A stretch of 64,000 bases of DNA, from assembly GCA_020832545.1 (NCBI GenBank), contig JAFIEK010000002.1:62001-126000 (forward strand), read 5' to 3'. Both the position numbers and the translations under genes were made by a program. This stretch comes from Pararhodobacter sp. (lineage in GTDB: Bacteria > Pseudomonadota > Alphaproteobacteria > Rhodobacterales > Rhodobacteraceae). Below are positions 2,454 to 58,911 of this stretch, piece by piece; position 1 is the stretch's first letter, and the number at the start of each line of letters is the position of its first letter. The notes below the pieces were generated by a model. It was not told the origin of the DNA. It made no database searches and saw only the letters and a list, made by a program, of their open reading frames with translations.

Positions 2454-2481
2454 AAAAAAGAAACCGGCCTAAGCCGGTTTC
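2454..2481 (-). terminator. Rho-independent terminator after ftsZ
   Basis: On the minus strand a perfect 9-bp stem GAAACCGGC / GCCGGTTTC with a 4-nt loop is followed directly by six T residues. It lies about 40 bp past the ftsZ stop codon, so ftsZ and lpxC transcription should be largely separated here. Confidence 0.88.
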
Positions 2482-2521
2482 TCTCACTGGTAGTCCTGCT
2501 CGATGTGATCTGCCGTCACCT

Positions 2522-42988: not shown

Positions 42989-43020
42989 AATCTTCTCTCC
43001 TTGGATCGGTGTGCCAGCAG

Positions 43021-43668
43021 TCATGCAGCGTCGGGCTGGTTGGGCGGTGCGGCATCGTGGAAGGCAGGCAGTTCATCCAGTGCGGCGAAAACCCGTTTGA
43101 TATTGGGCCAGGGCTCTAGTGGAATGTCAAAGCGGCGGTTGTTCCAGACCTGCGCGTACAGACAGATATCCGCCAGAGTTGGCACCTCACCGTGGCAAAA
43201 GCGACCAGTCGGTGCGTTGTCGGCCAATTCAACTTCGAGCGCGTCGAAGGTCAGGTTCACCCAGTGGGTGAACCATTCTTTCTGGGCGGCCTCATCCGCG
43301 CCGAACTGATCACGGAGCCGGAACAATACGCGCAGGTTGTTGAGCGGGTGAATCTCGCAGGCAATCATGAAGCTGAGCGCCCGCACCCGGGCCCGGCCCA
43401 GACTGTCAGCGGGCAATAATGGTGGTGCTGGGTGAGTTTCATCAAGCCATTCGATGATTGCCAGAGATTGGGTCAGCGATGTGCCGTCTTCAAGCTCAAG
43501 CGTGGGAACCAGTCCCTGCGGATTGCGCGCCAAGTATTCCGGCGTCCGCGTTTCGCCCTTGCGAAGAAGGTATGGGACATAGCCGTAGCTGAGCCCCTTC
43601 AGGTTCAGCGCGATTCTTACCCTCGTGGATGTCGACGACCGGAAGAAGTTATGCAGTCGGAATGTCAT
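43021..43668 (-). CDS. Maleylpyruvate/maleylacetoacetate isomerase (zeta-class GST type)
   Basis: This is a glutathione-dependent cis-trans isomerase expected to turn maleylpyruvate into fumarylpyruvate. The N-terminal thioredoxin-like GST domain has the zeta-class motif FFRSSTSTRVRIALNLKGL (SS-x-x-S/C-type), with PQGLVPTLELEDGTSLTQSL for glutathione binding. A helical C-terminal domain follows; length is 215 aa. The ATG at 43668 has GGAGACG upstream. It lies between the hydrolase and dioxygenase genes. Confidence 0.93.
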   Translation of the reverse strand: MTFRLHNFFRSSTSTRVRIALNLKGLSYGYVPYLLRKGETRTPEYLARNPQGLVPTLELEDGTSLTQSLAIIEWLDETHPAPPLLPADSLGRARVRALSFMIACEIHPLNNLRVLFRLRDQFGADEAAQKEWFTHWVNLTFDALEVELADNAPTGRFCHGEVPTLADICLYAQVWNNRRFDIPLEPWPNIKRVFAALDELPAFHDAAPPNQPDAA

Positions 43669-43719
43669 TGGCGTCTCCTCGGGGCCGCCCGTCTGCGGCG
43701 CTGAAATCCGGCTTTGCGC

Positions 43720-44418
43720 TCAGGCCCGTGGACCGATGGGTGTCTCGATCGTACCGAGACCCGCAATCTCGATACGGCAGATATCACCTTCGGCCAACGC
43801 ACCAACGCCAGCCGGCGTGCCCGTCATGATCAGATCGCCCGGCTGAATCTGCATCGATTGTGACAAGATCGAGATGATCTCGGGCACTGACCAGATAAGC
43901 TCTGCAAGATCAGCATCCTGCTTCACCTGCCCGTTCACCTCAAGGCGAATAGACCCTGTTTTTGGGTGTCCGACCTTGGAAACGGGGTGAACCGGTCCGA
44001 TCACGGCCGATCGGTCAAAAGCCTTGCCACAGTCCCATGGCCGCCCTTGCTCGCGCGCCTTGAGTTGCAGATCACGGCGCGTCAGATCATTGCCCACCGC
44101 ATAGCCCCAGACATGCGACAGCGCGTCAGATTCGGGAATATCGCGTCCCGGAAGTCCGATCACCACAACAAGCTCTGCCTCGAAGTGGAAGTTCCCGGTA
44201 TCGGGCGGATAGGCCACGGTTTCGCCACTGTCGACCACCGCATCGGCGGGTTTAGTGAAGAAGAAGGGTGGATCCCGGTCAGGATCCTTGCCCATCTCGC
44301 GGGCATGAGCGGCGTAGTTGCGCCCGACGCAAAAGATCCGCCGGACCGGTAGCCGCTTGTCGCTCTGCGCAACTGCAATGCTGGGTTGTGGCTGAGGGTC
44401 AAAGACAAAAGACATCAT
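43720..44418 (-). CDS. Fumarylpyruvate hydrolase (FAH family)
   Basis: The final step of the gentisate route, giving fumarate and pyruvate. FAH-fold motifs are IFCVGRNYAAHAREMG, the metal ligands in FHFEAELVVVIG, VGNDLTRRDLQ and DLIMTGTPAGVGAL. The track ORF starts at 44493; I use the ATG at 44418, just after AAAAGGAATA, giving 232 aa. It is on the same strand and closely spaced with the genes around it. Confidence 0.92.
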   Translation of the reverse strand: MMSFVFDPQPQPSIAVAQSDKRLPVRRIFCVGRNYAAHAREMGKDPDRDPPFFFTKPADAVVDSGETVAYPPDTGNFHFEAELVVVIGLPGRDIPESDALSHVWGYAVGNDLTRRDLQLKAREQGRPWDCGKAFDRSAVIGPVHPVSKVGHPKTGSIRLEVNGQVKQDADLAELIWSVPEIISILSQSMQIQPGDLIMTGTPAGVGALAEGDICRIEIAGLGTIETPIGPRA

Positions 44419-44513
44419 TATTCCTTTTCTTGGTTCGTCCGGGCCTGCAAAGCAGGCTTGTGCCGGTACTCCAGCGTCAAATGCGCCAATCAAACCCGTT
44501 TATCGGTGCAAGA

Positions 44514-46133
44514 TCACATGACACTGTCGACGTCTTGGCGCAGCGCCTGACGGTCGATCTTGCCGGTGCCAGTCTTGGGCAGTGCGGTAACGTAATTGAA
44601 CAAACGGGGCGCCTTATAGGGGGCGAGATGCGCCTTGACGTGATCTCGTAGCCGCGTGGTCTGCGTGTCATCCCCGACTAGGCCTTGGTTCAGACTTACC
44701 ACCGCGCGCAGAACGGTGCGTTTGTCGGGCAGCTGTTCGGCAAGGACGGAGCATTCGTAAACGTCGGGGTGTTCGTTCAGGCAACGCTCGACTTCGAGCG
44801 GCCAAACCCATTGGCCCGAAACCTTGACCAGATCATCGGCACGGCCCTGGAAATAATAGAATCCGTCACGCTCGATGAAACGGTCGCCAGTATAGATCCA
44901 GTCACCGCGCATCGTTTCGAGTGTCTTGTCCGGGCGGTTCCAATAGCACGGCGCCGACGAATGGCCCCGCACCAACATCACGCCTTCCTCACCCGCGGCT
45001 GCGGCAGCCCCTTCTGGCGTAACAAGCCTGATTTCATAACCCGGCACACGCGCGCCCGCAGCGCCGATGCGATGCTCATCAAGCCTGTTGCTGAGATAGA
45101 TATGCAGCATTTCTGTCGAGCCTAACCCCTCGGTCGGGCCGTGGCCGACCCTACGCTTCCAGGCAGTGTATACGTCTTCAGAAAGGATTTCGGCCGCTGA
45201 CATAGACTGACGAAGCGACGTAAGATCGCGTTGGTCGATGGTCTTGTCCTTTGCCAGTGCGGTGTAGAGCGTCGGCAGCCCGAACAGCACGCTCGGGCGA
45301 AAGTCCTCGATTGCATCCAGCACAGCATCCGGACGTGGCTGACCGGGCACCAGTAGCGTCGTCGCTCCGCAAGCGAAGGGGAAAACCAGCGAATTGCCGA
45401 ACCCATAGGCGAAATAGACCTTTGGAACCGAATAGCAGACATCGTCCTGTCGCAGCTTCAACACATGGGTGCCAAAGGCTGCCTGAATGTACGCCATGTC
45501 GTGGTGCAGGTGGACGATGCCCTTGGGCTTGCCCGTCGAGCCTGAAGAATACATCCAGAAGGCCATATCGTCAGGACCAGTAGCGGCCGCGTCCAGAACA
45601 TCGCCGACGCCAGCCAGAAAGGTTTCGACAGTGACAGTCTCGGTCGCATCAGCATCGCCACAGGCCACGATCACAGTTTCAATCTGTGTTCCTGAAAGGG
45701 TTTCCTGGTTCAGAATTCCTGCCAGTTCCGCATCGACGATGGCGACACGCGCGCGCGTGTCCTGAAGGAAATAGGTCAGGACATTCTGCTTGGTCTGGGT
45801 GTTCAGAAGCACCGGAACAAAGCCTGCCCTCACCGCCCCATAAAAGGCAGCAGGATATACGGGGCTGTCATCCAGAAAGAAGGCAATCCGTTCGCCACGC
45901 GCAAGGCCTGCACGGATAAAGGCATTGCCCCACCGCGAAGCCTCGGCAATCAAGTCACGATAACTCAGGCTTCCCATCGGGCCGATTACGGCGGTTTTCT
46001 CAGGGTTGCGGCGAAGGTTCTGCCACAAAATGTCTGAGCAATTTCGGTAGGCAGCCTTGTCAAAGCCGATCTCCCGCGCTCCCGCCACGTCCTGCGGAAC
46101 CGGATCGGTTATGTCGGGTGACAAATCGGACAT
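44514..46133 (-). CDS. Aryl-CoA ligase, probably salicylate-CoA ligase
   Basis: A 539-aa ANL-superfamily adenylate-forming ligase of the benzoate-CoA ligase type. It has the P-loop FWMYSSGSTGKPKGIVHLHH, GLGSTEMLHIY, the YTGDRF hinge region and the C-terminal lysine in LPKTGTGKIDRQALR. Its operon (CoA-ester hydroxylase upstream, gentisate pathway downstream) points to salicylate as substrate, giving salicylyl-CoA. The substrate is inferred from context; benzoate or anthranilate are alternatives. It starts 93 bp after the hydroxylase gene. Confidence 0.85.
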   Translation of the reverse strand: MSDLSPDITDPVPQDVAGAREIGFDKAAYRNCSDILWQNLRRNPEKTAVIGPMGSLSYRDLIAEASRWGNAFIRAGLARGERIAFFLDDSPVYPAAFYGAVRAGFVPVLLNTQTKQNVLTYFLQDTRARVAIVDAELAGILNQETLSGTQIETVIVACGDADATETVTVETFLAGVGDVLDAAATGPDDMAFWMYSSGSTGKPKGIVHLHHDMAYIQAAFGTHVLKLRQDDVCYSVPKVYFAYGFGNSLVFPFACGATTLLVPGQPRPDAVLDAIEDFRPSVLFGLPTLYTALAKDKTIDQRDLTSLRQSMSAAEILSEDVYTAWKRRVGHGPTEGLGSTEMLHIYLSNRLDEHRIGAAGARVPGYEIRLVTPEGAAAAAGEEGVMLVRGHSSAPCYWNRPDKTLETMRGDWIYTGDRFIERDGFYYFQGRADDLVKVSGQWVWPLEVERCLNEHPDVYECSVLAEQLPDKRTVLRAVVSLNQGLVGDDTQTTRLRDHVKAHLAPYKAPRLFNYVTALPKTGTGKIDRQALRQDVDSVM

Positions 46134-46226
46134 TGTGTTGTTTTCCTTTTACCTCGGCAGACCGGTGTCGAGTGGAGTACTGTCTGTCAAACTGGCCCGG
46201 AGGTTGCGCCAGTGACGGGCCGCACG

Positions 46227-47375
46227 CTATTGGCGGTTAGCCAAGGCCCTGTGCGCAGCGAAATCCGCTGCGAATTTAGGTGCAATCTGGCGGAGTCGTT
46301 CTTCGGTCATCCTGCCCGAGCGCATCAGATAGTCATGGGCGAAATCCATCGGCGCCATTCCCATCTTTTCGCCAAAACTCTCATACCAGTTCGCCGATGT
46401 GTTGGCCGCGTCGACGATCTTGCGAGCGATGGGCGGGCGCTTTTCCTGATACGCAGTCAGCGCCTCGGTCAGATCGTCATGTTCGTTGAGGGCCTGAGCG
46501 AGCGCAATCGCGTCTTCAAGCGCCAGACGCGTTCCAGAACCTATCGAGAAATGCGCCGTATGTACGGCGTCGCCCAGCAGGGCGAAGCGTCCAGTGACCC
46601 AGTTCTCACACCACAGCCGCGGAAACTGCCGCCACATAGATTTGTTCGTGACAAGTGACGTTCCCGCCAGCACGTCTGCAAACAAGGCGCTGCAACGCTT
46701 GGCGCTCTCGGTTTCATCCAGGCCGTCGAAGCCACCTTTGTGAAAAGTCTCATCGTCGCACTCGACGATGAAGGTGCTCCGATCCGGCGCAAATCGATAA
46801 TGGTGTGCATTCATCGGGCCAAAGGGCGTTGCGATGAATGTCTGTGTGAGCGTGTCAAAGGGAACCGTCGCGCCGAACCAGGCAAAGTGATTGCCAAACG
46901 ATTCTACCTGCGGCTTGAAATCTGCCTCAAATGTGCGCCTCACCAGCGAATTGAGCCCGTCCGCGCCGATAACCAGATCGGCTGTGAGGTCGTTCACATC
47001 AGAGATCTGAGTGTTGAAATGGACCGGAATATCAAGCTCCCGTGCCCGTTCGGTCAATATCTTAATAAGTTGCAGCCGCCCGATTGCGGTAAAGCCAACC
47101 CCGTCAAGCGTGACGCTGCCGCCCGGCAGGTTGAGCGTCATATTTCGCCAGCGCTCCATTTGCGAGGTAATCAGATCATGGGTTTCAGGATCGTCAGCCT
47201 TTAGAAACTCCAGCGCCCGGTCCGAGAACACCACACCAAAGCCGAAGGTCGCGCCTTCGGGATTCTGCTCCATCACATCGATTTTGACATGCGGCATGAG
47301 CCGCCGGATCAGAATTGCCGCATAGAGACCGGCAGGCCCCGCACCTATAATGGCGACGCTGGACAGCTTTGTCAT
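46227..47375 (-). CDS. FAD monooxygenase, probably salicylyl-CoA 5-hydroxylase (SdgC-like)
   Basis: A 382-aa group A flavin hydroxylase: GxGxxG in IGAGPAGLYAAILI, the DG motif VIGADGLNSLVRR and the GD motif FALLGDAVHTAHFSIGSGTR. The segment FGFGVVFSDRALEFLKADDP is characteristic of hydroxylases acting on aryl-CoA esters (salicylyl-CoA 5-hydroxylase and the N-terminal half of 2-aminobenzoyl-CoA monooxygenase/reductase). The reductase half of the latter is absent. The ATG at 47375 follows GGGAGG. It should make gentisyl-CoA, and is the first gene of the minus-strand operon. Confidence 0.85.
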   Translation of the reverse strand: MTKLSSVAIIGAGPAGLYAAILIRRLMPHVKIDVMEQNPEGATFGFGVVFSDRALEFLKADDPETHDLITSQMERWRNMTLNLPGGSVTLDGVGFTAIGRLQLIKILTERARELDIPVHFNTQISDVNDLTADLVIGADGLNSLVRRTFEADFKPQVESFGNHFAWFGATVPFDTLTQTFIATPFGPMNAHHYRFAPDRSTFIVECDDETFHKGGFDGLDETESAKRCSALFADVLAGTSLVTNKSMWRQFPRLWCENWVTGRFALLGDAVHTAHFSIGSGTRLALEDAIALAQALNEHDDLTEALTAYQEKRPPIARKIVDAANTSANWYESFGEKMGMAPMDFAHDYLMRSGRMTEERLRQIAPKFAADFAAHRALANRQ

Positions 47376-47420
47376 GGATCCTCCCAAGACCTGTAGACTT
47401 GATCACGGGATAGTCTAAAA

Positions 47421-47454
47421 TTTCATATTACGCAATTGATTCTTCTATATGGAA
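47421..47454. promoter_or_regulatory. Candidate IclR operator in the divergent promoter region
   Basis: The AT-rich 184-bp gap between the hydroxylase and IclR genes contains the near-palindrome TTCTATATGGAA (47443-47454, 10 of 12 symmetric). A related half-site TTTCATAT lies at 47421-47428. Position between divergent genes suggests the IclR protein binds here; this is inference. Confidence 0.45.
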
Positions 47455-47559
47455 TAAAGACGCCGGTTTGCAGATGCGCTAAGGTGCCAGTTCAGGCATA
47501 TCTGAAACAGTGTGGTCCGGCTGACCTTCCTACTTGGTATACAGTGATGGAATCTGAAA

Positions 47560-48348
47560 TTGACCAATGAAAACAACCACGGACAAGGGCTGAAATCGCT
47601 CGACACAGCGCTGGGAGTACTGGCCATCATGGCAGCCCAGAAGGGGCCGCTGTCGCTCTCCGAAATCGGGCGCGCATGCAGTATGCCACCCAGCAAGGTC
47701 CACCGTTATCTTGCGTCGTTTGTGGGGGCCGGACTGGTCAAGCAGCAAGGGCGTTCCGGCCGATATGATCTTGGCCCCGCCGCCTTGCAGCTTGGACTTG
47801 CCGCACTTGCCAGGCACAGCTTCGTCAATGCAGCCGCAGACGGTTTGTCAGACTTGTCAGGCGAGACAGGAATGACGGCGCTCTTGTCGGTATGGGCGAA
47901 CCAGGGCGCGACAGTTGTCAGATGGGAACGCGGGATTACACCGACCGATATGTCTATGGGTCTGGGCACAACTCTGCCACTTCTGAACTCAGCCACCGGG
48001 CGAGTTTTTCTTGCCTGGGGCGCACCCCGTGCGGTTGCGCCGGTCCGCGACGCCCAATTCGAACAGTTCGCGCGGCGCTCCGGTCAGTCGGTGGATCCCG
48101 ATCACACTTCAACGAGTATTGCGGCGATTGTCGAGAGTATTCGCGCAGACGGCTACGCTTCGGTCGTGGGAAGATACATCCCCGGATTGGTGGCCATAGC
48201 TGCACCTGTCCTTGATTGGCAAGGCGAGGCACAGGCTGCCATTACACTGGTTGGCATTGACCCACCCGTGATTGCTCCGGACTCACCCCAAGTCCAATGT
48301 CTGTTGGCGTACTGCGCGGAGAAATCGGTAGTGCGGGCTTCGGACTGA
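47560..48348 (+). CDS. IclR-family transcriptional regulator
   Basis: A 262-aa regulator with an N-terminal winged helix (LSLSEIGRACSMPPSKVHRYLASFVGAGLVKQ) and the C-terminal IclR effector domain (ATGRVFLAWGAP, AIAAPVLDWQGEAQAAITLVG). The start is a TTG at 47560, since an in-frame stop lies 13 codons or fewer upstream. It is divergent from the salicylate/gentisate operon and probably controls it in response to an aromatic acid. Confidence 0.9.
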   Translation: MTNENNHGQGLKSLDTALGVLAIMAAQKGPLSLSEIGRACSMPPSKVHRYLASFVGAGLVKQQGRSGRYDLGPAALQLGLAALARHSFVNAAADGLSDLSGETGMTALLSVWANQGATVVRWERGITPTDMSMGLGTTLPLLNSATGRVFLAWGAPRAVAPVRDAQFEQFARRSGQSVDPDHTSTSIAAIVESIRADGYASVVGRYIPGLVAIAAPVLDWQGEAQAAITLVGIDPPVIAPDSPQVQCLLAYCAEKSVVRASD

Positions 48349-48436
48349 ACACCGGCAGGTTGCCACTGAAAGAGGCGATGGCTGAACATCACCCTCATCC
48401 CCATCCCCACAAGACACAGCGGAAGGAACTGACGGA

Positions 48437-48634
48437 ATGATTGACAAGGTCATCGTTACCATCGCGACAACATCAAACTGTCATGGCAAGGGTTCAACCC
48501 CTGTCCTGCCCGAACAACCTGGGAACGTCGACCAGTTTGCCCCAGAAGCCTTCACAGGCATGTTCCCTGCCCATCTGCACGCTCGCGATCTGAATAGGAT
48601 GCAGCCCAGAGACCCGCAGGTAGTTCGCAAATGA
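48437..48634 (+). pseudogene. Remnant of a BKACE (DUF849) enzyme N-terminus
   Basis: A 65-codon ORF whose ends match the N-terminus of beta-keto acid cleavage enzymes: MIDKVIVTIATTSNCHGKGS, VLPEQP and AHLHARDLNRMQPRDPQ. The alpha-helical stretch between is degraded, and everything after about residue 65 is missing. It has a good ribosome-binding site (GGAAGGA), and its TGA overlaps the thioesterase ATG, so its translation may still couple to the next gene. Confidence 0.6.
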
Positions 48635-49044
48635 ATGTCCCCTTGTCGCTCTGCGAAACCGCAATCGATGTAAGCTTCGGTGACTGTGATCCTGCGGGTA
48701 TCACCTTTTACCCCAATTTCTTTCGCTGGACGGACGGGCTGTTTCACAGCTTCCTTCGGGAACGCGCTCACGGCCACAATGCGATTTGCGCCCAACTCGG
48801 CGCGAAAGGTCTGGGTGTGATTGCCACCGAAATGCGGTTTCGGTCGCCGGCGCTTGACGGCGACACGCTTCAAATTGTCCTGAACGGCATCGAGTGGTCG
48901 GAACGGTCCTTCACACTCGCGTACTCCGGGCAGATCGAAGACCGAGTTGTTTTTGAAGCAATCGAGAAGCGGGGGGTGTTTGTCCAGGACGGGGAACGCA
49001 TGTCTCTCGCCGGAACAAATGAATTGCAACATCTGCTGGGCTGA
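48631..49044 (+). CDS. 4-hydroxybenzoyl-CoA thioesterase family, probable gentisyl-CoA thioesterase
   Basis: A 137-aa hot-dog thioesterase of the Pseudomonas 4-hydroxybenzoyl-CoA type. The catalytic Asp lies in DVSFGDCDPAGITFYPNFF (Asp20, equivalent to Asp17 of the Pseudomonas CBS3 enzyme). Beside a salicylate-CoA ligase and aryl-CoA hydroxylase, the likely substrate is gentisyl-CoA, releasing gentisate for the dioxygenase. It is downstream of the IclR gene and the BKACE remnant, overlapping the latter by 4 nt. Confidence 0.86.
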   Translation: MNVPLSLCETAIDVSFGDCDPAGITFYPNFFRWTDGLFHSFLRERAHGHNAICAQLGAKGLGVIATEMRFRSPALDGDTLQIVLNGIEWSERSFTLAYSGQIEDRVVFEAIEKRGVFVQDGERMSLAGTNELQHLLG

Positions 49045-49075
49045 TCCATGCAACCGGCTGCATGGATAGGAAGGT

Positions 49076-49301
49076 TCAACCCGCCAGCTGAAGCATGATC
49101 GATACAGCGACGGGAACCGCAATCAACAGGGTGACGACCGGCACATCGGCAAGCGGATAGGGTCGGACACCTTTGAATGTTGCGCTGAGTGAAGCGAACA
49201 TCGCCCGTTTCGCTGCGGATAACGAAAGCATGCATGCCGACAGGCGGCGTGATCATACCGACCTCAAACATCTTCGCTACCAGCATCCCAACCAGATTTT
49301 C
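49076..49301 (-). pseudogene. Remnant of a TRAP transporter large permease (DctM) C-terminus
   Basis: On the minus strand ENLVGMLVAKMFEVGMITPP and VGMHAFVIRSETGDVRFTQ match the conserved end of DctM (compare IIVKYVEIGLITPPVGLNVF in the intact copy at 57179). The frame then shifts by one and continues FKGVRPYPLADVPVVTLLIA to a stop at 49076. Only about 75 codons remain. The 170 bp beyond it toward 49470 show no gene. Confidence 0.8.
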
Positions 49302-49472: not shown

Positions 49473-49489
49473 TGTCAACTATATAGACA
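49473..49489. promoter_or_regulatory. 17-bp palindrome, candidate MarR operator 1
   Basis: TGTCAACTATATAGACA lies 26 bp before the M20 gene. It has the same length and the same first half (ATGTCAA, counting the preceding A) as the element at 51210, so both may bind the MarR protein encoded between them. Confidence 0.6.
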
Positions 49490-49515: not shown

Positions 49516-50649
49516 ATGAATACTACCGCATGGGCTTCTTTCCGCCGCGATCTCCACCAGAATCCCGAACTGGGTTTTAAAGAGCACCGGACTGCCGCGA
49601 AAATCGCCGCCTCGCTGCGGCGGATCGGATGCAGCGTCGAAGAAGGGATCGCCCAGACCGGTGTAGTCGGAACACTCGTGAATGGCCCTGGGCCGATGAT
49701 CGGGCTGCGCGCCGACATGGACGCGCTACCAATGACCGAAGCGACCGGCAAACCCTGGACTTCACAGATTGACGGCGTCTTTCATGGCTGCGGGCATGAC
49801 GGACACGTGACCTGTCTGCTGGCAACTGCCGAGCATCTCGCCAAGACGCGTGCATTCTGTGGAACGGTCGTTTTCATCTTTCAGCCTGCGGAGGAGGGAC
49901 ACGGCGGTGGGCGCGTGATGGTGGAAGAGGGACTCTTTGACCGGCACCCCTGCGATAGAATCTATGGCTTTCACAACATGCCCTTGCTGCCACTAGGCAC
50001 CGCCGCCGTGAAATCCGGGCCGATGATGGCCTCTTTCGACGAGTTGCGGGTAACCTTTCATGGGGAGGCGGGCCATGCGGCCGCCCCGCATCTGGCGCGT
50101 GACCCGGTACTCGCCGCCGCAGACTGCGCGGTCGCGCTGTCACGCAGCCCAGCACGCCGGGTTGATCCGCATGCCCCATCGGTGCTGAGCGTCACGCAGA
50201 TCCATGGCGGCACAACCCACAACGTGATCCCCGCCGAGGCGTGGCTTGGCGGCACCGTTCGTGCCCTTTCTGCCGAGGCGCGGCAGATCCTGGAAGAAGA
50301 GGTCACACGCATTTCCCAAGCCATCGCGGCGCAGCATGGGGTTGAGTGCTCGGTCGTTTACGACCGGCGTTTTCCCGTGCTTGTGAACGAGCCCGAGGCC
50401 ACAGCGGCCCTGCGGGCAGCGGCGGGCCAGGCGCTGGGGCCCAATGCGTTGATGGATGATTTTCGGCCGCTGCTCGCCGCCGAGGATTTCGCCTTCATGC
50501 TCGCCGCTTGTCCCGGCGCTTATATTTTGCTCGGTCAAGGGGATGACACCCACCATGCGATGGTGCACAACCCGGGATACGATTTCAACGACCAGCTCAT
50601 TCCGCTGGCCGTGAACGTCCTTTCGGCGGCCGTCTCGCAGGGATTATGA
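49516..50649 (+). CDS. M20D-family amidohydrolase
   Basis: A 377-aa metal-dependent amidase of the hippurate/N-acyl-amino-acid hydrolase type. Motifs are GLRADMDALPMTE, FHGCGHDGHVTCLL (metal Cys/His), QPAEEGHGGGRVMVEEG (catalytic Glu pair) and DFRPLLAAEDFAFM. Such enzymes split acyl conjugates of amino acids. Beside a salicylate pathway, a salicyloyl-amino-acid conjugate is one possible substrate, but this is speculation. It is 25 bp upstream of the marR gene. Confidence 0.9.
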   Translation: MNTTAWASFRRDLHQNPELGFKEHRTAAKIAASLRRIGCSVEEGIAQTGVVGTLVNGPGPMIGLRADMDALPMTEATGKPWTSQIDGVFHGCGHDGHVTCLLATAEHLAKTRAFCGTVVFIFQPAEEGHGGGRVMVEEGLFDRHPCDRIYGFHNMPLLPLGTAAVKSGPMMASFDELRVTFHGEAGHAAAPHLARDPVLAAADCAVALSRSPARRVDPHAPSVLSVTQIHGGTTHNVIPAEAWLGGTVRALSAEARQILEEEVTRISQAIAAQHGVECSVVYDRRFPVLVNEPEATAALRAAAGQALGPNALMDDFRPLLAAEDFAFMLAACPGAYILLGQGDDTHHAMVHNPGYDFNDQLIPLAVNVLSAAVSQGL

Positions 50650-50674
50650 GGGCTGACCGGGCGCTGGAGCAACC

Positions 50675-51181
50675 ATGCAGAACGTGAATGACAAACGCAC
50701 CGACTTGTTGCCGACCGACGAGGAATTGTCGCGGCTCCGGCACGAAAACCTCGGACGCCTGCTCGACTTCGTGCATGTTGCATTTGACCGGCTCGCACTC
50801 GAATACCTCCACCGTGCCGGCTATCCCTATATCCGCGCCGCGCATACGCATATGTTGCGCACCATGCGAGCCAGTGGCGCAAGCCTTACCGACATGGCCG
50901 AGGAGGCGGGCATTTCCAAACAGGCGATGAGCAAGCTTGCTGCCGAGTTCGAGCGCATGGGATTCATCGAGTGGCGCGATGGGCCTCCGCGGACCATTCA
51001 CACCACCGCAGCCGGTCAAACACTGCTCAAGTATGGTGTGCTGGCCCTGCGTGAGGCGGAAGATCACTATTTCAGTGAGATCTCGGGCGAGGAGCGCGAA
51101 ATCCTCCGAAAACTGCTGCTGCGCGTGTCCGAGGCCGACAGCAACGGTCGTAGCCCGACGTGGCGGCGCCGGCGTGCATGA
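50675..51181 (+). CDS. MarR-family transcriptional regulator
   Basis: A 168-aa regulator with a winged helix: HTHMLRTMRASGASLTDMAE, EAGISKQAMSKLAAEFERMG and WRDGPPRTIHTTAAGQTLL. It sits between the M20 gene and the TRAP operon. Similar 17-bp palindromes precede both, so it probably represses both units until an effector, perhaps an aromatic acid or its CoA ester, is bound. Confidence 0.9.
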   Translation: MQNVNDKRTDLLPTDEELSRLRHENLGRLLDFVHVAFDRLALEYLHRAGYPYIRAAHTHMLRTMRASGASLTDMAEEAGISKQAMSKLAAEFERMGFIEWRDGPPRTIHTTAAGQTLLKYGVLALREAEDHYFSEISGEEREILRKLLLRVSEADSNGRSPTWRRRRA

Positions 51182-51209
51182 ATTGATTTACTCTCGTTTG
51201 CAGATCAGA

Positions 51210-51249
51210 TGTCAATAAAGTTGACATAAAGTCGCGAATCAGTGTTTAC
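51210..51249 (+). promoter_or_regulatory. MarR operator 2 overlapping the TRAP operon promoter
   Basis: The palindrome TGTCAA-TAAAG-TTGACA (51210-51226) has a perfect 6-bp arm. Its right arm TTGACA (51221-51226) is a consensus -35 box, with a possible -10 GTTTAC (51244-51249) 17 bp away. Binding here would block the polymerase. dctP starts 54 bp further on. Confidence 0.6.
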
Positions 51250-51302
51250 TTGATCGCACAGAGCGGGGTCGACCCGCCGCATCAACCGATAGGGACCCCC
51301 AG

Positions 51303-52406
51303 ATGAGACAAGCAATCACCGTTGCTATCCTTGCTCTTGCCTCCGGTACGAGCCTGGCCAGCGCCCAGACCCTGACCTATGGCTCCGGCGTTCCGGAGCG
51401 CTCTGGCGCTAATCGCTTCGGCGTTCTGCCGATGATGGAGCGCATTACCGATGCAACAGAGGGCCGCGTGACCTTCACGCCGATCCTGGGGGGACAACTC
51501 GTCTCGATTCCAGGGGCATTGCGCGGTATCGCCGACGGTGTCGTCGACAGCGGCTTCTTCCTGACGCAATTCCATCCCGCCGAACTTCCCGCTGCATCCC
51601 TGATGTCCGAGGTGACTGGGCTGGGCACCGATCCCTTCGCGACCATCGGCGCGCTGAACGAAGCGTTCTTCGTCACGTGCGACGCTTGCCGGTCTGATCT
51701 GCGCGCGACCGGCCTCGTGCCGCTGCTGCTGCAATCGGCAACCCCGCTGACCATGCAGTGTACCCGCCCTGTCGCGACATTAACTGACCTTCAGGGCTTG
51801 CGCGTCTCGACCATCGGCCAGCCTGAAGCGAGGTGGGGCGCCAGCCTGGGCATGGTGCCTGTGAACACGTCAATTGCCGATATCCTGACCGGCCTGCAGC
51901 TCGGCCAGACTGATTGCACGCTGGTCGGCACCTCGTGGATCAGAAGCTATGGCCTCGAAGACACGGTGAAGAGCGTCATCGAGATGCCGCAGGGCATCAT
52001 TGCCGGTGCGGTCCCCTTGGCCTTCAATGCCGGTGCCTGGGACAGGATCGATGCCGCCGACCGCGCAGCGATGGTCGACCTGATGCCACGCATGCTGTGG
52101 GATTATGTGGCCGATGCCTATGTTGAACCAGACGAGGCGGTACGCGCCGAACTTTCCGACGCCATCGCCTTTGTACCCGGTGACGAGGCGCTCGCGTCAG
52201 CCTGGCAGACGTTCCAGGCGGACGAACAGGCAGCGCTGGTGACGCTTGCGCAGCAACGCGGGGTCGAGAACCCCGAGGAACTGGTGGCCGCTATTGTCGA
52301 GGTTTTCCGCGTCTGGCACGAAGACCTGCTGCCGGAGTTCGACGGTGACCCCGAGGCTTTCGAGCGGATTGCGCGCGAACGCATCTTCTCGCTCTACGAC
52401 TTCTAA
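51303..52406 (+). CDS. TRAP transporter substrate-binding protein (DctP family)
   Basis: A 367-aa periplasmic solute receptor with a signal peptide (AITVAILALASGTSLASA) and DctP-type features: LPMMERITDATEGRVTFTPI, the TDLQGLRVSTIGQPEARWGA segment (usual ligand-binding Arg region) and ADILTGLQLGQTDCTLVG. Two Cys pairs (CDACRSD) are unusual. The ligand is unknown, but most TRAP receptors bind organic acids. It is the first gene of the eight-gene operon; its partners DctQ and DctM come after five other genes. Confidence 0.88.
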   Translation: MRQAITVAILALASGTSLASAQTLTYGSGVPERSGANRFGVLPMMERITDATEGRVTFTPILGGQLVSIPGALRGIADGVVDSGFFLTQFHPAELPAASLMSEVTGLGTDPFATIGALNEAFFVTCDACRSDLRATGLVPLLLQSATPLTMQCTRPVATLTDLQGLRVSTIGQPEARWGASLGMVPVNTSIADILTGLQLGQTDCTLVGTSWIRSYGLEDTVKSVIEMPQGIIAGAVPLAFNAGAWDRIDAADRAAMVDLMPRMLWDYVADAYVEPDEAVRAELSDAIAFVPGDEALASAWQTFQADEQAALVTLAQQRGVENPEELVAAIVEVFRVWHEDLLPEFDGDPEAFERIARERIFSLYDF

Positions 52407-53086
52407 TGCACACCATCGGCCTCGTCGGCGGCATGAGTTGGCATTCCAGCGCGCTCTATTATCGTCGGCTGAACGCTCTCGCTGAACGGCGCTGGGGCCC
52501 CGGGGTGACGCCACGCAGCGTTCTCGTCACCCTACCTTTCGCCGATCTGCAGGAAGCGGGAGGTCGCGGGAACTGGGACTTGGTCACAGACCAGATCGTC
52601 AGCGCCGCGCGTGACTGTGTTGCAAGTGGCGCCGACCTGATCTTGCTGACCGCTTTCACTGCCCATGTCGCGGCTCCGGCGGTGGCTGCGGCGATCAGTG
52701 TACCGCTGTTGCACGCGGGTGATGCACTGGCCGCAGCCGTGCCGCATGGGCCGGTCGGTCTGCTGGGCACTGCCGCCACACTGGAGGCGGATCATGTACG
52801 AGAGCGGCTGCTTGCCCGGGGGCACGTGGTTCTTACACCCGGTGCCGTTTTCCGCACGGCGCTTGATCAGGCAATCCAGCGCGACCTTGCGCAAGGCCGG
52901 ATCACGCCGGGCGCGCAAGCCGCCCTTGCCGCCGCCGCCGCTGATCTGGTGTCGCAGGGTGCGGCCAGTCTGGCGCTGGCGTGTACCGAACTGCCGCTGC
53001 TGGCGCTGGACCAGCTTCCCCTTCCGGCAATTGACGGGGTTGAGGCCCATGTCGCTGCCGCGCTCAACGCTTTGGAGACCGCATGA
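52406..53086 (+). CDS. Aspartate/glutamate racemase superfamily protein lacking the first catalytic residue
   Basis: A 226-aa protein with the family N-terminus TIGLVGGMSWHSSALYYRRLN. The second catalytic Cys is present in LALACTELPLLAL. The first catalytic site, normally C-N-T-x-H (Thr in place of Cys in E. coli YgeA), reads AFTAH, so Ala replaces it. Two-base racemisation is therefore unlikely. One-Cys relatives such as arylmalonate decarboxylase suggest another reaction. Its ATG overlaps the dctP stop (TAATG). Confidence 0.85.
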   Translation: MHTIGLVGGMSWHSSALYYRRLNALAERRWGPGVTPRSVLVTLPFADLQEAGGRGNWDLVTDQIVSAARDCVASGADLILLTAFTAHVAAPAVAAAISVPLLHAGDALAAAVPHGPVGLLGTAATLEADHVRERLLARGHVVLTPGAVFRTALDQAIQRDLAQGRITPGAQAALAAAAADLVSQGAASLALACTELPLLALDQLPLPAIDGVEAHVAAALNALETA

Positions 53087-54099
53087 AAGCCCTTTACTTC
53101 GACCGTCACGGTGGCCCTGAAGTGCTTACCTGGGGCGATCTGCCCGATCCTGATCGCCCGCAAGGATGGGTCAAGCTGCGGATGCGCGCTGCATCGCTCA
53201 ACTACCTCGACATCTTTACCCGGCGCGGCATGCTCGGTATCCGCGTGCCTTTCCCGATGGTAACAGGCGGCGATTGCGTCGGCGAGATCGTCGAAGCGGA
53301 TGGCCCCATCGGCGGCTTGGGCATCGGTGACCGTGCGCTGATCAATCCTGCGCATATCGACGATCGCAGCGGCCATTTCGAGATGATGGGCGAAACCCGG
53401 CCCGGTGCCCTGGCGCAGTATGTGGTCGCACGCCCCGAGCAACTGATACCGATCCCGGACACGGTTTCTGATGCGCAGGCGGCGGCGCTGCCCGTTGCCT
53501 ATGCGACGGCCTGGCGGATGCTGCATACCCGCGGAAACCTGAGCGCTGATGACAGGGTTCTGATCCTCGGTGCCTCGGGCGGGGTTGGCACGGCGGCCCT
53601 GCTCATCGCGAAAGCCTGCGGCGCGCATGTCACCGCCGCCGCCGGTGGCCCCGAGAAATGCGCGCGACTGACCAAGCTGGGTGCTGATGCAACGCTCGAC
53701 TACGCCGCCGAGCCGATCGACGCCTACACAAAGCGTGTGTCAGGATCGCTGTTTCGGGGTGGCGGGTTCGATGTGGTGGTGAACTTTACCGGGGGCGACA
53801 CCTGGGTTCCGTCGCTGAAGTCGGTGAAGCGCGGCGGTCGGCTGCTTACCTGTGGCGCGACTGCCGGTTTCGACCCCAAGACCGACATACGGTACATCTT
53901 CATGGCCGAAATGGATATTCGCGGCTCCACCGGCTTTTCCCGCGCCGATATCGAAGCCTGCCTCGCCGCCGTCGCTGCGGGTAGCTGGGCGCCAGCCATT
54001 GATGCAGTCCTGCCGCTTGAGCGCGCGGCGGAAGGGATCGCGCTGCTTGAAGAGCGCCGGGTCTTTGGCAAGGTCGTGATCGAAGGCCTGCCAGCATGA
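53083..54099 (+). CDS. MDR-superfamily oxidoreductase (quinone-oxidoreductase-like)
   Basis: A 338-aa medium-chain reductase. It starts MKALYFDRHGGPEVLTWGDL and has YLDIFTRRGMLGIRVPFPMV and the cofactor motif LILGASGGVGTAALLIAKAC with LGADATLDY. No structural-zinc Cys cluster is visible, so it belongs to the zinc-independent quinone reductase/enoyl reductase side. The substrate is unknown, perhaps an enoyl or quinone intermediate. It overlaps the racemase-like gene by 4 nt. Confidence 0.88.
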   Translation: MKALYFDRHGGPEVLTWGDLPDPDRPQGWVKLRMRAASLNYLDIFTRRGMLGIRVPFPMVTGGDCVGEIVEADGPIGGLGIGDRALINPAHIDDRSGHFEMMGETRPGALAQYVVARPEQLIPIPDTVSDAQAAALPVAYATAWRMLHTRGNLSADDRVLILGASGGVGTAALLIAKACGAHVTAAAGGPEKCARLTKLGADATLDYAAEPIDAYTKRVSGSLFRGGGFDVVVNFTGGDTWVPSLKSVKRGGRLLTCGATAGFDPKTDIRYIFMAEMDIRGSTGFSRADIEACLAAVAAGSWAPAIDAVLPLERAAEGIALLEERRVFGKVVIEGLPA

Positions 54100-55871
54100 G
54101 TGACCTGCCCGCCGACACCGGCGCAACGTCGCGGGCCGCAGTTGAGGCGCGGCCGCTTGACGACTGGCTTCTGGCGCCGACCTGGTCAGGCTGCCTCGCC
54201 GCTGCGGCGGCCTTGCGCCCTGAAGCCTGCGCCTACCGCTGGCTCGCCTCGCCGCAGGCCGCACCGGTGGACCTCAGCTACGGCGAGATTGCGGCGGGGG
54301 CAGACATGGCCGCGCGTGCCTTCAGCACTCTGGGCGAGCGACCGGTTGTTGCCTCGCTTCTGCCAGCGTTACCGGCAACCTTGCCGCTTGCTTTCGGCGC
54401 GATGGCGGCGGGGGTCTACATGCCGGTCAACCCGATGCTAAACAGCGAGGCGATTGTGGGTATGTTGGTCAGCGCGCGGGCGTCAGCCCTGCTGCTGCCC
54501 GTGGGTCAGCCCGAACCGGAAGGAGTATTGACCGCCCTTCCCGATCTTGTGATCTTGCGCATCGACGAAAGCGCGCTCGCGACGCGCCACCTGTCGCCGC
54601 TCTCAGGCCTCCCAACAACGCTGCGCCGCACGCCCGAGGCTGAGGATATTTGCGCCTATTTCCACACCGGCGGCACCACCGGCGCGCCTAAGATTGCCCG
54701 GCTGCGCCAGCGCAACCTTGCCTATATGGCTTGGCTGGCGGGCTTTGGTGGGGGGATGCGGCGCAGTGATGTCGTGCCCTGTGGGATGCCGTTGTTCCAT
54801 GTGGGCGGGCTGGTCTTCGGCGGGTTGGCGCCCCTCGCGGCGGGGGCGATCATCGTGCAGCTCGGGACCGGCGGGTACCGCGACCCTGACATGCGCGCCG
54901 CCTTCGCCGAGATCGCTAACCGCGAGGGAGCGACCATCCTTTTCGCGCCACCCACCATCGCCGTGGATGTAATGGCATCCACACCTCGCAATGCGTTCAG
55001 GACGGCACGACACTGGGTGTCATCGGCGGCGCCGCTGCCGGTGGCCACACACAAAGCCTTCACCGCCCATACCGGCCTGCCGGTCAAGGAAGCCTGGGGC
55101 CTGACCGAGGCAACGCTGGTGGTGACTTTCGCGCCCTCGGGCGCCGAAAGCCGCCCCGGATCTGTTGGTCCCGCCTTGCCTTATTGCCGTGTCGCCGTCG
55201 TTGATCCGCACAGCCATGCTCCGCTCCCTGCGGGCGAGACCGGGCTGATCCTTGTGCGTTCGCCGGGGCTTTTTGCTGGCTATCTCGGCAATGAGGCGTC
55301 CGGGCTGAAAACCGGACCCGATGGCGAGATCTGGCTGGATACCGGCGACATGGGGCGGCTGGACGATAACGGCTGGCTGTCCGTCACCGGCCGCGCCAAA
55401 GACATGATCCTGCGCGGCGGGCACAATATCGACCCCGCCGACATAGAGGCCGCCTATCTGGCACAGCCGGGCGTGACGGCGGCCATCGCGGTGGGTCGGC
55501 CCGATGCACGGGTGGGCGAGCAGCCGATGGTGTTTCTGACCCGGCGCGCCGATGACCCCGCCGACCGGCTCTTGCGCGATACCGCGAACGCTCTGATCGC
55601 CGATCCGGTGGCACGGCCGAAAAATCTGCACGTCTTGGCCGAAATGCCGCTAACGGTCGTTGGCAAACCGGACCGCCCGGCGCTGCGCCGGATGGCAGCG
55701 GAACTGGCCGTGCGCGAAGCGGTCCAAGATGCAACCGCAGTCACCGCATGCCCCGGACCCGGCGGCAGCATCGCGATCAACCTCAAACCGATGACAGAAC
55801 GGGACAGCGCTGTCGTTCAACACCTCGGGCTGACGCTTGCGCAGTCGACCGCCTGCACGGAGACACCATGA
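54096..55871 (+). CDS. Acyl-CoA synthetase (AMP-binding)
   Basis: A 591-aa ANL ligase. It has the P-loop YFHTGGTTGAPKIARLRQRN, KEAWGLTEATLVVTF, WLDTGDMGRLDDNGWLSVTG, KDMILRGGHNIDPADIE and the C-terminal KPDRPALRRM near the catalytic Lys. The P-loop has the less common IAR in place of the usual KG. The substrate is unknown; the context suggests the TRAP-imported acid or a product of it. It overlaps its neighbours by 4 nt on each side. Confidence 0.88.
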   Translation: MSDLPADTGATSRAAVEARPLDDWLLAPTWSGCLAAAAALRPEACAYRWLASPQAAPVDLSYGEIAAGADMAARAFSTLGERPVVASLLPALPATLPLAFGAMAAGVYMPVNPMLNSEAIVGMLVSARASALLLPVGQPEPEGVLTALPDLVILRIDESALATRHLSPLSGLPTTLRRTPEAEDICAYFHTGGTTGAPKIARLRQRNLAYMAWLAGFGGGMRRSDVVPCGMPLFHVGGLVFGGLAPLAAGAIIVQLGTGGYRDPDMRAAFAEIANREGATILFAPPTIAVDVMASTPRNAFRTARHWVSSAAPLPVATHKAFTAHTGLPVKEAWGLTEATLVVTFAPSGAESRPGSVGPALPYCRVAVVDPHSHAPLPAGETGLILVRSPGLFAGYLGNEASGLKTGPDGEIWLDTGDMGRLDDNGWLSVTGRAKDMILRGGHNIDPADIEAAYLAQPGVTAAIAVGRPDARVGEQPMVFLTRRADDPADRLLRDTANALIADPVARPKNLHVLAEMPLTVVGKPDRPALRRMAAELAVREAVQDATAVTACPGPGGSIAINLKPMTERDSAVVQHLGLTLAQSTACTETP

Positions 55872-56713
55872 CTGACCGTATTCTGGATATCGACCACTTG
55901 ATGATCAACACGCCCGATGCCGGTGCCACAGGTGATGCCTTCGAGCACCTCGGGTTTATCGTCACCCCTGAAAGTCTTCTGCCCGGGCTGGTCAACCGGC
56001 TGATCTGCTTTGGCGACACCGATGCCACAGGTGGGATCTGCAACTACGTTGAACTGATGTGCCTGTCGGATCCTGCGCTGGCACCCGCACCGATGCCCAC
56101 GCTTCTGGCCGGCCCCTTTGGCCCAGTCTCCACCGTGATGGCTGTCGATGATGCTGAAGCTGCCACGCAGCGCCTCAAGGGCCTCGGCTTGCAGATCGGG
56201 CCGGTCCTGCATCTGGACAGGGCCTGGCAATTGCCCGATGGTGACGTCATCCGACCCGCCTTCGCGGTCGCCATTCCTGAACCCGGTCAGGCGCCCTTCT
56301 ACTGGAATTACTGTCAGCACAAGACACCACAGCACTACGTCCGTGCGGAATTCACTGCCCATCCGAACGGCGTCACGCGGATGCTGGCGGTTCTGGCGGT
56401 ACATCCTGACCCGCTGACTGTCGCCTCAGCCTATCAGGCGCAATGGGGTGGACGTGTCGAGGGTGAGAACCCTGCGCGGATCACGGCGGGTAAAGTGGCG
56501 CTTGAAGTCTTCACGCCGGAGGCCTTTGCCGCACGATATGGCGGGCCACCCCCGGCACCCGGGCTGCGGGGCATGTGCCTCCGCAGCCGCGATCTGGCCA
56601 CCACCCTGAAGGCGATGCCCAGCGCCACGCGACGCAGCGGCGCTCTCATCGCAAGTGTAGGGCCGGCTGGCGAAACCATCCTTGAGATCGTAGGCTCCGA
56701 TGCGGATCGTTGA
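55868..56713 (+). CDS. Glyoxalase_3-type VOC protein
   Basis: The 281-aa product has the paired beta-alpha-beta fold of the glyoxalase-like domain 3: ILDIDHLMINTPDAGATGDA, FEHLGFIVTPESLLPG and NYVELMCLSD. A weaker second half follows. These proteins are metal-dependent in many cases but mostly uncharacterised. It could be an isomerase or lyase of the pathway. The ATG overlaps the ligase stop by 4 nt. Confidence 0.82.
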   Translation: MTDRILDIDHLMINTPDAGATGDAFEHLGFIVTPESLLPGLVNRLICFGDTDATGGICNYVELMCLSDPALAPAPMPTLLAGPFGPVSTVMAVDDAEAATQRLKGLGLQIGPVLHLDRAWQLPDGDVIRPAFAVAIPEPGQAPFYWNYCQHKTPQHYVRAEFTAHPNGVTRMLAVLAVHPDPLTVASAYQAQWGGRVEGENPARITAGKVALEVFTPEAFAARYGGPPPAPGLRGMCLRSRDLATTLKAMPSATRRSGALIASVGPAGETILEIVGSDADR

Positions 56714-57182
56714 CGGCATCGCGCGGATCGCCGAAGCGCTGGCCGGCGTCGCGCTTGTCTTGCTGATGGTGCATGTGACGGTCGATGTTGTCAGCACCGC
56801 AGTCGGTCGTCCGTTGCGCGGCACAACCGAAGTGGCAGCCGAACTCTATATGCCTGCCATCGTCTTCGGCGCGCTGGCAATGGTGCAGCGCCGGGGCGAG
56901 GAAATCCGCGTCGACATCCTCGCTATCCTCCTGCACGACCGGATAGCATCACTCTTGGACCGGGCCGCGCAGCTTGTGGTGATGGGATCAGCACTCTGGC
57001 TGGCCTGGCACACCGGGTTGCATGCACATCGGGCTTGGCGCATTGGCGAGTTCATCGACCTGGGAGTGCTGCGCGTGCCGGCTTGGCCGGGCAAGGCAAT
57101 GCTTCCGCTTGGCCTCGGCGCTCTTGCTCTGGCTGCGTTTACCCGGGCCCTGCGTCCGTCACACGAGGATGACGCGCGATGA
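56700..57182 (+). CDS. TRAP transporter small permease (DctQ)
   Basis: A 160-aa protein with four hydrophobic segments, including ALAGVALVLLMVHVTVDVVS and LPLGLGALALAAFTRAL, and the DctQ-typical GTTEVAAELYMPAIVFGALA. It pairs with DctM in the inner membrane. It overlaps the VOC gene by 14 nt and dctM by 4 nt. Confidence 0.9.
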   Translation: MRIVDGIARIAEALAGVALVLLMVHVTVDVVSTAVGRPLRGTTEVAAELYMPAIVFGALAMVQRRGEEIRVDILAILLHDRIASLLDRAAQLVVMGSALWLAWHTGLHAHRAWRIGEFIDLGVLRVPAWPGKAMLPLGLGALALAAFTRALRPSHEDDAR

Positions 57183-58489
57183 CCGGTCTCGAAGTCGGCG
57201 CCTTCGTGGTAGTGGGCGCGTTGGGGTTGATCCTGCTGCGGGTGCCGGTCGGGGTGGCGTTGGGTCTGTCGGCCTTTGCCGGTGCGGCGACGCTGCTGCC
57301 CATGCCCGCTGCAATCAGCCTGATGTCCCGCGTGCCCTATGAGTTCGCGGCGAGTTGGGAATATGCTGCTGTCCCGCTGTTCTTGTTGATGGGTGCGATC
57401 GTTGTCCGCGCCAACATGGCCGAAGGCATCTTCGCATTTCTTGGCCGGGCGCTGCGCGGTGTTCCGGGCGGTCTGGCGATCGCCACCAACTTCGCCGGTG
57501 CTGGCTTTGGTGCCGCCACCGGATCAAGCCTCGCCACAACCGTGGCCATCGGGCGGCTGGCGACACCGCAGATGCTGCGCGCGCGTTACGATCCCGGGCT
57601 GGCCACTGCCGTGACGGCCTGTGCTGGCACCCTTGCGGCACTGATCCCGCCTTCCATACCCTTGATCGTCTACGGCATTTTGGCTGAGCAGTCGGTTGCG
57701 CGGCTGTTTTTTGCCGGGTTGGTACCGGGGCTGCTCACGGCCTTTGTTTATGCCGCCATGATTTCCGTCCGCTGCTGGCTCAATCCGACGCTGGCGCCAC
57801 CGCTACCGCACGACGAGACACCATTGCCGCGTGACCCGGGGCTGTTCGCGCTACCTCTGCTCGCCATCATCATCCTTGGCGGAATCTATTTCGGCTGGTT
57901 CTCACCCAGCCAGGCGGGTGCGGTCGGCGCCGTGGCTGCACTGGTGCTGGCACTGTTACGCGGCAACTTTGGTTGGGCAGAGTTGCGCGCCGCAGTGGGC
58001 GATGCGGCACGCCAGTCAAGCGCGATCCTGTTTGTGGCAATCGGTGCCTTCATGCTGACACGGACCATGGCACTGACCGGCCTTCCCGGTGCGCTTGCCG
58101 ATCTGGTTGAATTCTGGTCGATATCGCCGTTGGTTCTTATCCTTGCCGCGTCGCTGATCTTTGTGCTTCTGGGCATGATTCTTGACCCGTTGGGCGTGAT
58201 GCTGCTCTCGGTTGCCGTGCTTTTGCCCGTGTTCGAACGTCAGGGGTTTGATCTGATCTGGCTGGGCATCATCATCGTGAAATACGTCGAGATCGGGTTG
58301 ATTACTCCGCCCGTCGGTCTCAATGTTTTCGCTGCCAAATCTGTCGCTCCGAAAGGGATCGCGTTGACGACGATCTTCCGGGGTGTGCTGTGGTTTCTTC
58401 TTGCGGAGGTTGTCGTGATGACTTTGCTGCTGAGCATGCCGAGCCTGACCCTGTGGTTACCTGATCTCGTATTTGGGGTACGCCGATGA
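57179..58489 (+). CDS. TRAP transporter large permease (DctM)
   Basis: A 436-aa, about 12-TM sodium-coupled permease. Typical DctM segments are VPLFLLMGAIVVRANMAEGI, TGSSLATTVAIGRLATPQM, CAGTLAALIPPSIPLIVYGI and KYVEIGLITPPVGLNVFAAK. It completes the TRAP system with the receptor at 51303 and DctQ. The conserved end resembles the decayed fragment at 49076. Confidence 0.94.
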   Translation: MTGLEVGAFVVVGALGLILLRVPVGVALGLSAFAGAATLLPMPAAISLMSRVPYEFAASWEYAAVPLFLLMGAIVVRANMAEGIFAFLGRALRGVPGGLAIATNFAGAGFGAATGSSLATTVAIGRLATPQMLRARYDPGLATAVTACAGTLAALIPPSIPLIVYGILAEQSVARLFFAGLVPGLLTAFVYAAMISVRCWLNPTLAPPLPHDETPLPRDPGLFALPLLAIIILGGIYFGWFSPSQAGAVGAVAALVLALLRGNFGWAELRAAVGDAARQSSAILFVAIGAFMLTRTMALTGLPGALADLVEFWSISPLVLILAASLIFVLLGMILDPLGVMLLSVAVLLPVFERQGFDLIWLGIIIVKYVEIGLITPPVGLNVFAAKSVAPKGIALTTIFRGVLWFLLAEVVVMTLLLSMPSLTLWLPDLVFGVRR

Positions 58490-58911
58490 CACTTGACCAG
58501 CTTCAGAAGCTGCTCAGCATGGCCGAGTTTCACAAGATCGTGCAGGTCCGCGCGCTGGCGGTGACACCGGACGGCAGTCTTACACTGATGCTGCCGTTCG
58601 ATCCGGCCTACACGCTCGTCCGCGCCAGTGGCGCCTACCACGGCGGGGTGATTGCCACGCTGATCGACGTCGCCGGCACCATGTCCTGTTCGGTTGTACA
58701 GGGTAGACCGACGCCGACCGCCAATCTGCGCGTGGACTACCTCAAGAGCCCGGCATCCTGTGACCTCTATGCAGATTCCATCGTCCGGCGCGTGGGACGG
58801 TTGCTGGGAACAGCCGACGTGACAATCCGCGATCATGGCGGCCAGGTCTATGCCATTGGGCGCGGTACATTCGTCATGGCAGCACCCGAAACATCCCCCC
58901 GAGCGGGCTAG
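58486..58911 (+). CDS. PaaI-type hot-dog thioesterase
   Basis: A 141-aa hot-dog fold protein. It has the core ASGAYHGGVIATLIDVAGTM and PTPTANLRVDYLKSPAS, typical of PaaI-like acyl/aryl-CoA thioesterases. Last gene of the TRAP operon, overlapping dctM by 4 nt. It may release a free acid from a CoA ester or rescue CoA. Confidence 0.88.
   Translation: MTLDQLQKLLSMAEFHKIVQVRALAVTPDGSLTLMLPFDPAYTLVRASGAYHGGVIATLIDVAGTMSCSVVQGRPTPTANLRVDYLKSPASCDLYADSIVRRVGRLLGTADVTIRDHGGQVYAIGRGTFVMAAPETSPRAG

Follow-up and report, generated by a model that had tools for sequence, protein, structure and literature searches.

In Rhodopseudomonas palustris, the MarR-type protein CouR senses p-coumaroyl-coenzyme A (CoA) and controls the tripartite ATP-independent periplasmic (TRAP) transporter TarPQM together with a CoA ligase (PMC3610893). 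The same three elements, a TRAP transporter, a CoA ligase and a MarR-type regulator, which CouR unites in a single aromatic-acid regulon, recur in the operon described here. It lies in a 64,000-nucleotide (nt) stretch of a Pararhodobacter sp. genome (contig JAFIEK010000002.1, positions 62,001 to 126,000; hereafter the window, whose numbering we use). Its M20, racemase, Glyoxalase_3, medium-chain dehydrogenase/reductase (MDR) and thioesterase genes are not part of the CouR set as described in PMC3610893. Conversely, the enoyl-CoA hydratase CouA of that description has no counterpart in the window operon, and TarP, though related to DctP, is a separate receptor. The operon belongs among TRAP-linked CoA catabolic regulons, with an anomaly in its receptor. 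Our preferred reading, a tentative one whose chance we put a little short of even, is that two transcripts form a self-contained catabolic regulon, which imports, cleaves, CoA-activates and reduces an amide-linked, probably aromatic compound.

Ten genes on the forward strand make up the set. An M20 aminoacylase-type amidohydrolase (M20D, TIGR01891; 49516–50649) and, after a gap of 25 nt, the MarR-type regulator (50675–51181), the proposed repressor of both transcripts, precede eight genes at 51303–58911, from which they are separated by 121 nt. The eight encode the TRAP solute-binding protein DctP, in which Ser169 replaces the carboxylate-binding arginine (PF03480; 51303–52406), an Asp/Glu racemase-family protein with an Ala83/Cys193 pair (52406–53086), an MDR-family reductase resembling quinone oxidoreductases and enoyl reductases (53083–54099), the last two assigned by family profiles, an AMP-binding acyl/aryl-CoA ligase (PF00501, PF13193; 54096–55871), a Glyoxalase_3 protein of the vicinal oxygen chelate (VOC) type with invariant His10 and Glu62 (PF13468; 55868–56713), the small permease DctQ (PF04290; 56700–57182), the large permease DctM (PF06808, and TIGR00786 over cut-off; 57179–58489) and a PaaI-like hotdog thioesterase (TIGR00369 over cut-off; 58486–58911). 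DctP, DctQ and DctM each exceed the Pfam gathering cut-off. Consecutive genes overlap by 1 nt at dctP/racemase (TAATG), by 14 nt at VOC/dctQ and by 4 nt at racemase/MDR, MDR/ligase, ligase/VOC, dctQ/dctM and dctM/thioesterase. A first-pass annotation of this DNA had described eight contiguous, overlapping genes, and their coordinates, those of the M20 and MarR genes and all seven junctions were verified. Its family assignments stood for M20, DctP, the racemase, MDR, the ligase, Glyoxalase_3, DctQ and DctM and were refined for the thioesterase, which scores 28.3 bits against the PaaI equivalog TIGR02286, far under the cut-off of 118.9; judged by these scores, the protein is not PaaI proper but a hotdog enzyme of a generic PaaI-like type. 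The MarR assignment agrees with the annotation of the Tistrella orthologue, with a domain score slightly short of the Pfam MarR cut-offs (MarR_2, 24.3 bits versus 27).

The first-pass annotation had also proposed searching for this gene order elsewhere. The order and its tight coupling recur in six further genomes, at protein identities of 35–71%, so the operon is neither confined to one strain nor a chance arrangement. Across the seven clusters compared (the window copy and these six), the complete order M20–MarR–DctP–racemase–MDR–ligase–VOC–DctQ–DctM–thioesterase is present in L015 and L016, two more genomes from the genus of the window (the matching contigs bear the names RHODO2 MAG and Pararhodobacter aggregans D1-19). 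An alphaproteobacterial metagenome-assembled genome (L019) keeps MarR through thioesterase, and in three Tistrella-type genomes a divergent M20 gene is followed by MarR to thioesterase, with the racemase missing; in one of them, T. mobilis KA081020-065 (L022), the cluster is on plasmid pTM1. M20 is kept in six of the seven clusters, the tight overlaps are found again in the relatives (in two of which the M20 and MarR-type genes themselves overlap by 4 nt), and in each copy the enzyme genes lie between those for the receptor and the permease. This supports the earlier proposal of one tightly coupled unit for uptake and breakdown, and makes the underlying observation stronger than first put. In L019, peptide-type ABC transporter genes (recognized by eye) and an M20 dipeptidase occupy 544–3904, upstream of MarR, in place of the M20 aminoacylase.

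The operon is rare: it was found in 3 of 19 genomes of the genus, and searches by the VOC gene and by DctP gave 1 of 397 sampled genomes of the family and 1 of 399 of the phylum, respectively. Its neighbors in L015, L016 and L022 differ from those in the window. This scattered presence with differing neighbors suggests horizontal spread, and the differing neighbors also indicate that the operon is independent of the gentisate-type cluster adjacent to it in the window. A limited literature search (gene set, Glyoxalase_3, N-acyl amino acid and TRAP pathways) returned no matching characterized system, in keeping with the earlier statement that no described pathway has this set.

A 15-bp palindrome of the GTCAAYANA-TTGAC type precedes both M20 and dctP. 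Putative operator site 1 (TGTCAACTATATAGACA, with a degenerate core GTCAACTATATAGAC; 49473–49489) lies 26 nt ahead of the M20 start codon, and putative site 2 (TGTCAATAAAGTTGACA, with core GTCAATAAAGTTGAC; 51210–51226) lies ahead of dctP. L015 and L016 carry intact GTCAATAAAGTTGAC copies at the place corresponding to site 1, and the palindrome takes the form GTCAATAAAGTTGAC, GTCAATATAGTTGAC, GTCAACATAGTTGAC or GTCAATATTGTTGAC in L015, L016, L019, L022, L046 and L047. Searching whole genomes with the strict pattern GTCAAYNWNRTTGAC, for which a simple composition estimate predicts about 0.1 site per genome, yielded four sites in the relatives G009 and G017, two per genome and each within the cluster, ahead of M20 and of dctP, as well as one site in the window genome, and one per Tistrella genome plus an unrelated one in T. 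mobilis. Read by eye, the right half of the palindrome in the dctP promoters doubles as a -35 element (TTGACA, 51221–51226 in the window), followed by a 17-nt spacer and a weak -10. The simplest reading is that a local MarR-type repressor would govern just two transcripts, M20–marR and dctP–thioesterase. Since M20 shares this palindrome-bearing promoter type with dctP, it is, on the predicted regulation, a full member of the pathway. The common palindrome and the conserved linkage likewise uphold the earlier inclusion of M20 and MarR in the unit.

The conserved arginine of TRAP receptors, present in 96.8% of the DctP family, selects for carboxylates (PMC4646407). The corresponding DctP residue 169 is Ser or Ala in all eight members of the clade to which the window protein belongs, which cover three cluster types, and Arg in all 16 outgroup DctPs. 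Ser169 aligns with the arginine of 4p56, its equivalence to SiaP Arg147 being drawn by the KxR motif and not by direct alignment; the arginine of that motif, which is not strictly defining of TRAP receptors, is absent from the window DctP. Tp0957 and Csal_0678 likewise lack an equivalent of SiaP Arg147, as do about 3% of DctPs (PMC4646407), but the clade of the window protein differs from them by its Ser/Ala and by a clade-specific PExRW motif a few residues beyond position 169. The PDB entries nearest to the DctP structure model (predicted local distance difference test score, pLDDT, 92) are 4p56 and receptors for aromatic acids, among them coumarate, ferulate and cinnamate, and a sequence search returned the same group. 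Among more distant, plasmid-borne homologues, three of the five inspected are surrounded by genes of aromatic catabolism, for example those for ring-hydroxylating dioxygenases, HpaR/HpaE or p-hydroxycinnamoyl-CoA hydratase/lyase. The case for importing a plain acid, as first proposed for this operon, is weakened because this clade has lost the arginine with which almost every TRAP receptor binds the carboxylate. Both the layout of the regulon and the anomaly of the receptor are read directly from sequence.

In Tistrella genomes, two further clusters combine a VOC relative with a DctPQM from this clade. In the pTM2-type cluster (L023 11499–16195; also L049 and L050), DctPQM–IclR is divergent from VOC and an Asp/Glu racemase, and the T. 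mobilis chromosomal cluster (L048 5674–12076) comprises LysR, a class-III aminotransferase, VOC, a peptidase M19 and the Arg-less-clade DctPQM. Only the transporter and VOC are kept across the paralogous clusters and they thus form the stable core, the partners seen being amide hydrolases and amino-acid enzymes. The Arg-less DctP, together with paralogous clusters that contain peptidase M19 or amino-acid enzymes, leads us to favor import of an amide-linked substrate over that of a simple acid. Outside the clade, VOC homologues occur mostly in unrelated gene contexts, so VOC alone is no marker. Two partial arrangements were also seen: at L105 9019–10613 the genes for a racemase relative and a VOC relative overlap and stand as a pair that lacks a transporter, and at L109 249–4108 an AMP-binding ligase gene is lined up with those for a PaaI-like thioesterase and, in tandem, two VOC relatives, which may be a distant cousin of part of the operon.

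The M20 protein scores 351 bits against TIGR01891 (cut-off 154), displays the CGHDGH, EEG and FHN metal-ligand motifs, and can therefore be assigned to the M20D aminoacylases. Its nearest solved relatives are the IAA-amino acid hydrolase ILL2, YxeP and an acyl-glutamine aminoacylase, with which it shares family and metal-ligand motifs and from which it differs in being embedded in a TRAP/CoA regulon. The bile-salt metallohydrolase was set aside as a comparison, as it belongs to a different superfamily. For the ligase, the best solved match is malonyl-CoA synthetase, without specificity; we rejected identity as a malonyl-CoA ligase because this match is generic and the binding residues are not established. 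The VOC protein matches Glyoxalase_3 (PF13468) at 62.4 bits, over the gathering cut-off of 25.1, and its AlphaFold2 model (pLDDT 95) has a two-domain fold like that of 4-hydroxyphenylpyruvate dioxygenase (HPPD). Despite this fold, assignment as an HPPD or extradiol dioxygenase was rejected because the C-terminal His-His-Glu iron site is not conserved: past residue 168 only Gly208 and Gly268 are invariant or nearly so, and the conserved His10, Glu62 and His165 lie earlier. Invariant His10 and Glu62 probably occupy the usual VOC metal positions. When the VOC profile was searched against PDB sequences, no genuine match came up.

In all three copies of the racemase-family protein that were aligned, the first catalytic position is Ala (Ala83) and the second, Cys193, is kept, so that the two catalytic cysteines of an Asp/Glu racemase are not both present. 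We nevertheless dropped the argument that Ala in place of Cys excludes a racemase, since RacX, with its Ala79/Cys193 pair, is an active broad-specificity amino acid racemase (PMC12838360). The window protein has the Ala83/Cys193 pair and Thr85 of the RacX-type signature, but Phe84 replaces the Asn (Asn80 of RacX) that follows the Ala. RacX and EcL-DER belong to the same family as the window protein and keep the second cysteine, the first being Ala in RacX and Thr in EcL-DER (PMC12838360). EcL-DER-type racemases are its closest solved relatives (about 35% identity to EcL-DER), although the window protein stands in a catabolic context with a transporter. Because three Tistrella operons lack the gene, the conserved pathway must be able to run without the racemase.

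We infer the order of reactions, the cytoplasmic location of M20, the repression and the inducer as follows. The transcripts M20–marR and dctP–racemase–MDR–ligase–VOC–dctQ–dctM–thioesterase would both be repressed by the MarR-type protein at the common palindrome. A single compound would enter through DctPQM, most likely an amide-masked aromatic or arylalkyl acid such as an N-acyl amino acid, an N-aroyl amino acid or a comparable conjugate. M20 would hydrolyze the amide in the cytoplasm and the ligase would turn the freed acid into a CoA ester. The MDR enzyme would then reduce the CoA ester or a derived enoyl-CoA, and the thioesterase would free the product or unblock CoA. The imported compound, or the amino part of it, would also be the target of VOC and of the racemase, the latter as an accessory. 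The inducer may be the CoA ester, as the CouR precedent suggests. We hold the substrate class, amide-linked and probably aromatic, with moderate confidence.

Several observations weigh against this interpretation. A missing arginine is no proof of a non-carboxylate ligand, N-acyl amino acids themselves bear a carboxylate, and the arginine of the PExRW motif could stand in for the lost one. The palindromes are predicted operators, and a generic promoter scan missed the -35 and -10 of dctP that were read by eye. The substrates of the ligase and MDR cannot be read from sequence. Both paralogous cluster types are without M20, and without ligase, MDR and thioesterase directly alongside, and the L019 stretch examined lacks an M20D gene, having the different M20 dipeptidase upstream.

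Other explanations were weighed as well. Import of a free carboxylic acid, aromatic or other, that is CoA-activated, reduced or isomerized and released, with M20 feeding in acid from outside conjugates or being peripheral, is supported by the ligase, MDR and thioesterase, which suit acid-CoA chemistry, and by the aromatic acids associated with the more distant DctPs and the nearest structures. We consider it unlikely, if a serious contender, as the whole clade has lost the carboxylate-binding arginine, M20 has the common palindrome and linkage and hence is not peripheral, and another amide hydrolase stands in a paralogous cluster. That hydrolase, the M19 dipeptidase, accompanied by an aminotransferase, would fit pathways centered on a dipeptide or on a derivative of a D- or unusual amino acid, in which the central reactions fall to the racemase and M20 while the CoA genes deal with the carbon skeleton. 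The RacX-like Ala/Cys pair (PMC12838360) and the lone racemase–VOC unit in L105 point the same way. Against this stand the three Tistrella copies without a racemase, the Phe at the position of RacX Asn80 and the MDR gene, which is 66–69% identical across all clusters and better conserved than the racemase; we judge such a pathway improbable.

Genes for arylmalonate decarboxylase (AMDase), an Asp/Glu racemase-family protein, are known next to TRAP and TTT transporters, in an account that mentions no CoA ligase or glyoxalase (PMC4996985). An arylmalonate route, with an AMDase-like racemase-family protein and a malonyl-CoA synthetase-like ligase, could draw on this precedent, on the one retained catalytic cysteine (the other being lost) and on the top solved match of the ligase. 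We rejected AMDase identity because both of the motifs that flank its catalytic positions, LMGTSLSF (G74-T75-S76) and ILLSCGGL, are missing, the window protein reading LLTAFTAH and LACTELPL (compared with PMC4996985), and with them goes the support for the arylmalonic acids suggested earlier. With EcL-DER-type racemases as nearest solved relatives, a generic ligase match and a dispensable racemase, such a route is the most remote of those considered. Hardly more probable is that the operon extends the adjacent salicylyl-CoA/gentisate-type cluster (41301–49041), whose substrate it would supply or process: the two adjoin in the window strain and share aromatic CoA chemistry, but the operon has its own regulator and palindromes and other neighbors in L015, L016 and L022.

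That cluster (41301–47387 on the reverse strand and 47560–49041 on the forward strand) looks like a complete gentisate-type route via a CoA ester, with a CoA ligase, FAD hydroxylase, cupin dioxygenase, fumarylpyruvate-type hydrolase, IclR regulator and 4HBT-like thioesterase. It has the unusual feature of GST-type and mycothiol-type (MDMPI_N) maleylpyruvate isomerases side by side. An open reading frame at 48870–49286 (reverse strand) ends in a DctM-like stretch, AKMFEVGMITPPVGMHAF, which by eye resembles a remnant of another TRAP large permease beside the gentisate genes.

For the regulon itself, we retain the reading of an imported and cleaved amide-linked compound. Its extension to the family, namely that the Arg-less receptor clade serves amide-linked or non-standard aromatics and is coupled in every cluster seen to a Glyoxalase_3 protein of new function, we regard as less likely than not. 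TRAP transporters are held to carry carboxylates owing to one arginine, and a defined clade without it makes this rule testable. With its own enzymes and a two-site regulon, the Arg-less clade offers a route to the function of the uncharacterized Glyoxalase_3 family and to an uncharacterized catabolic pathway.

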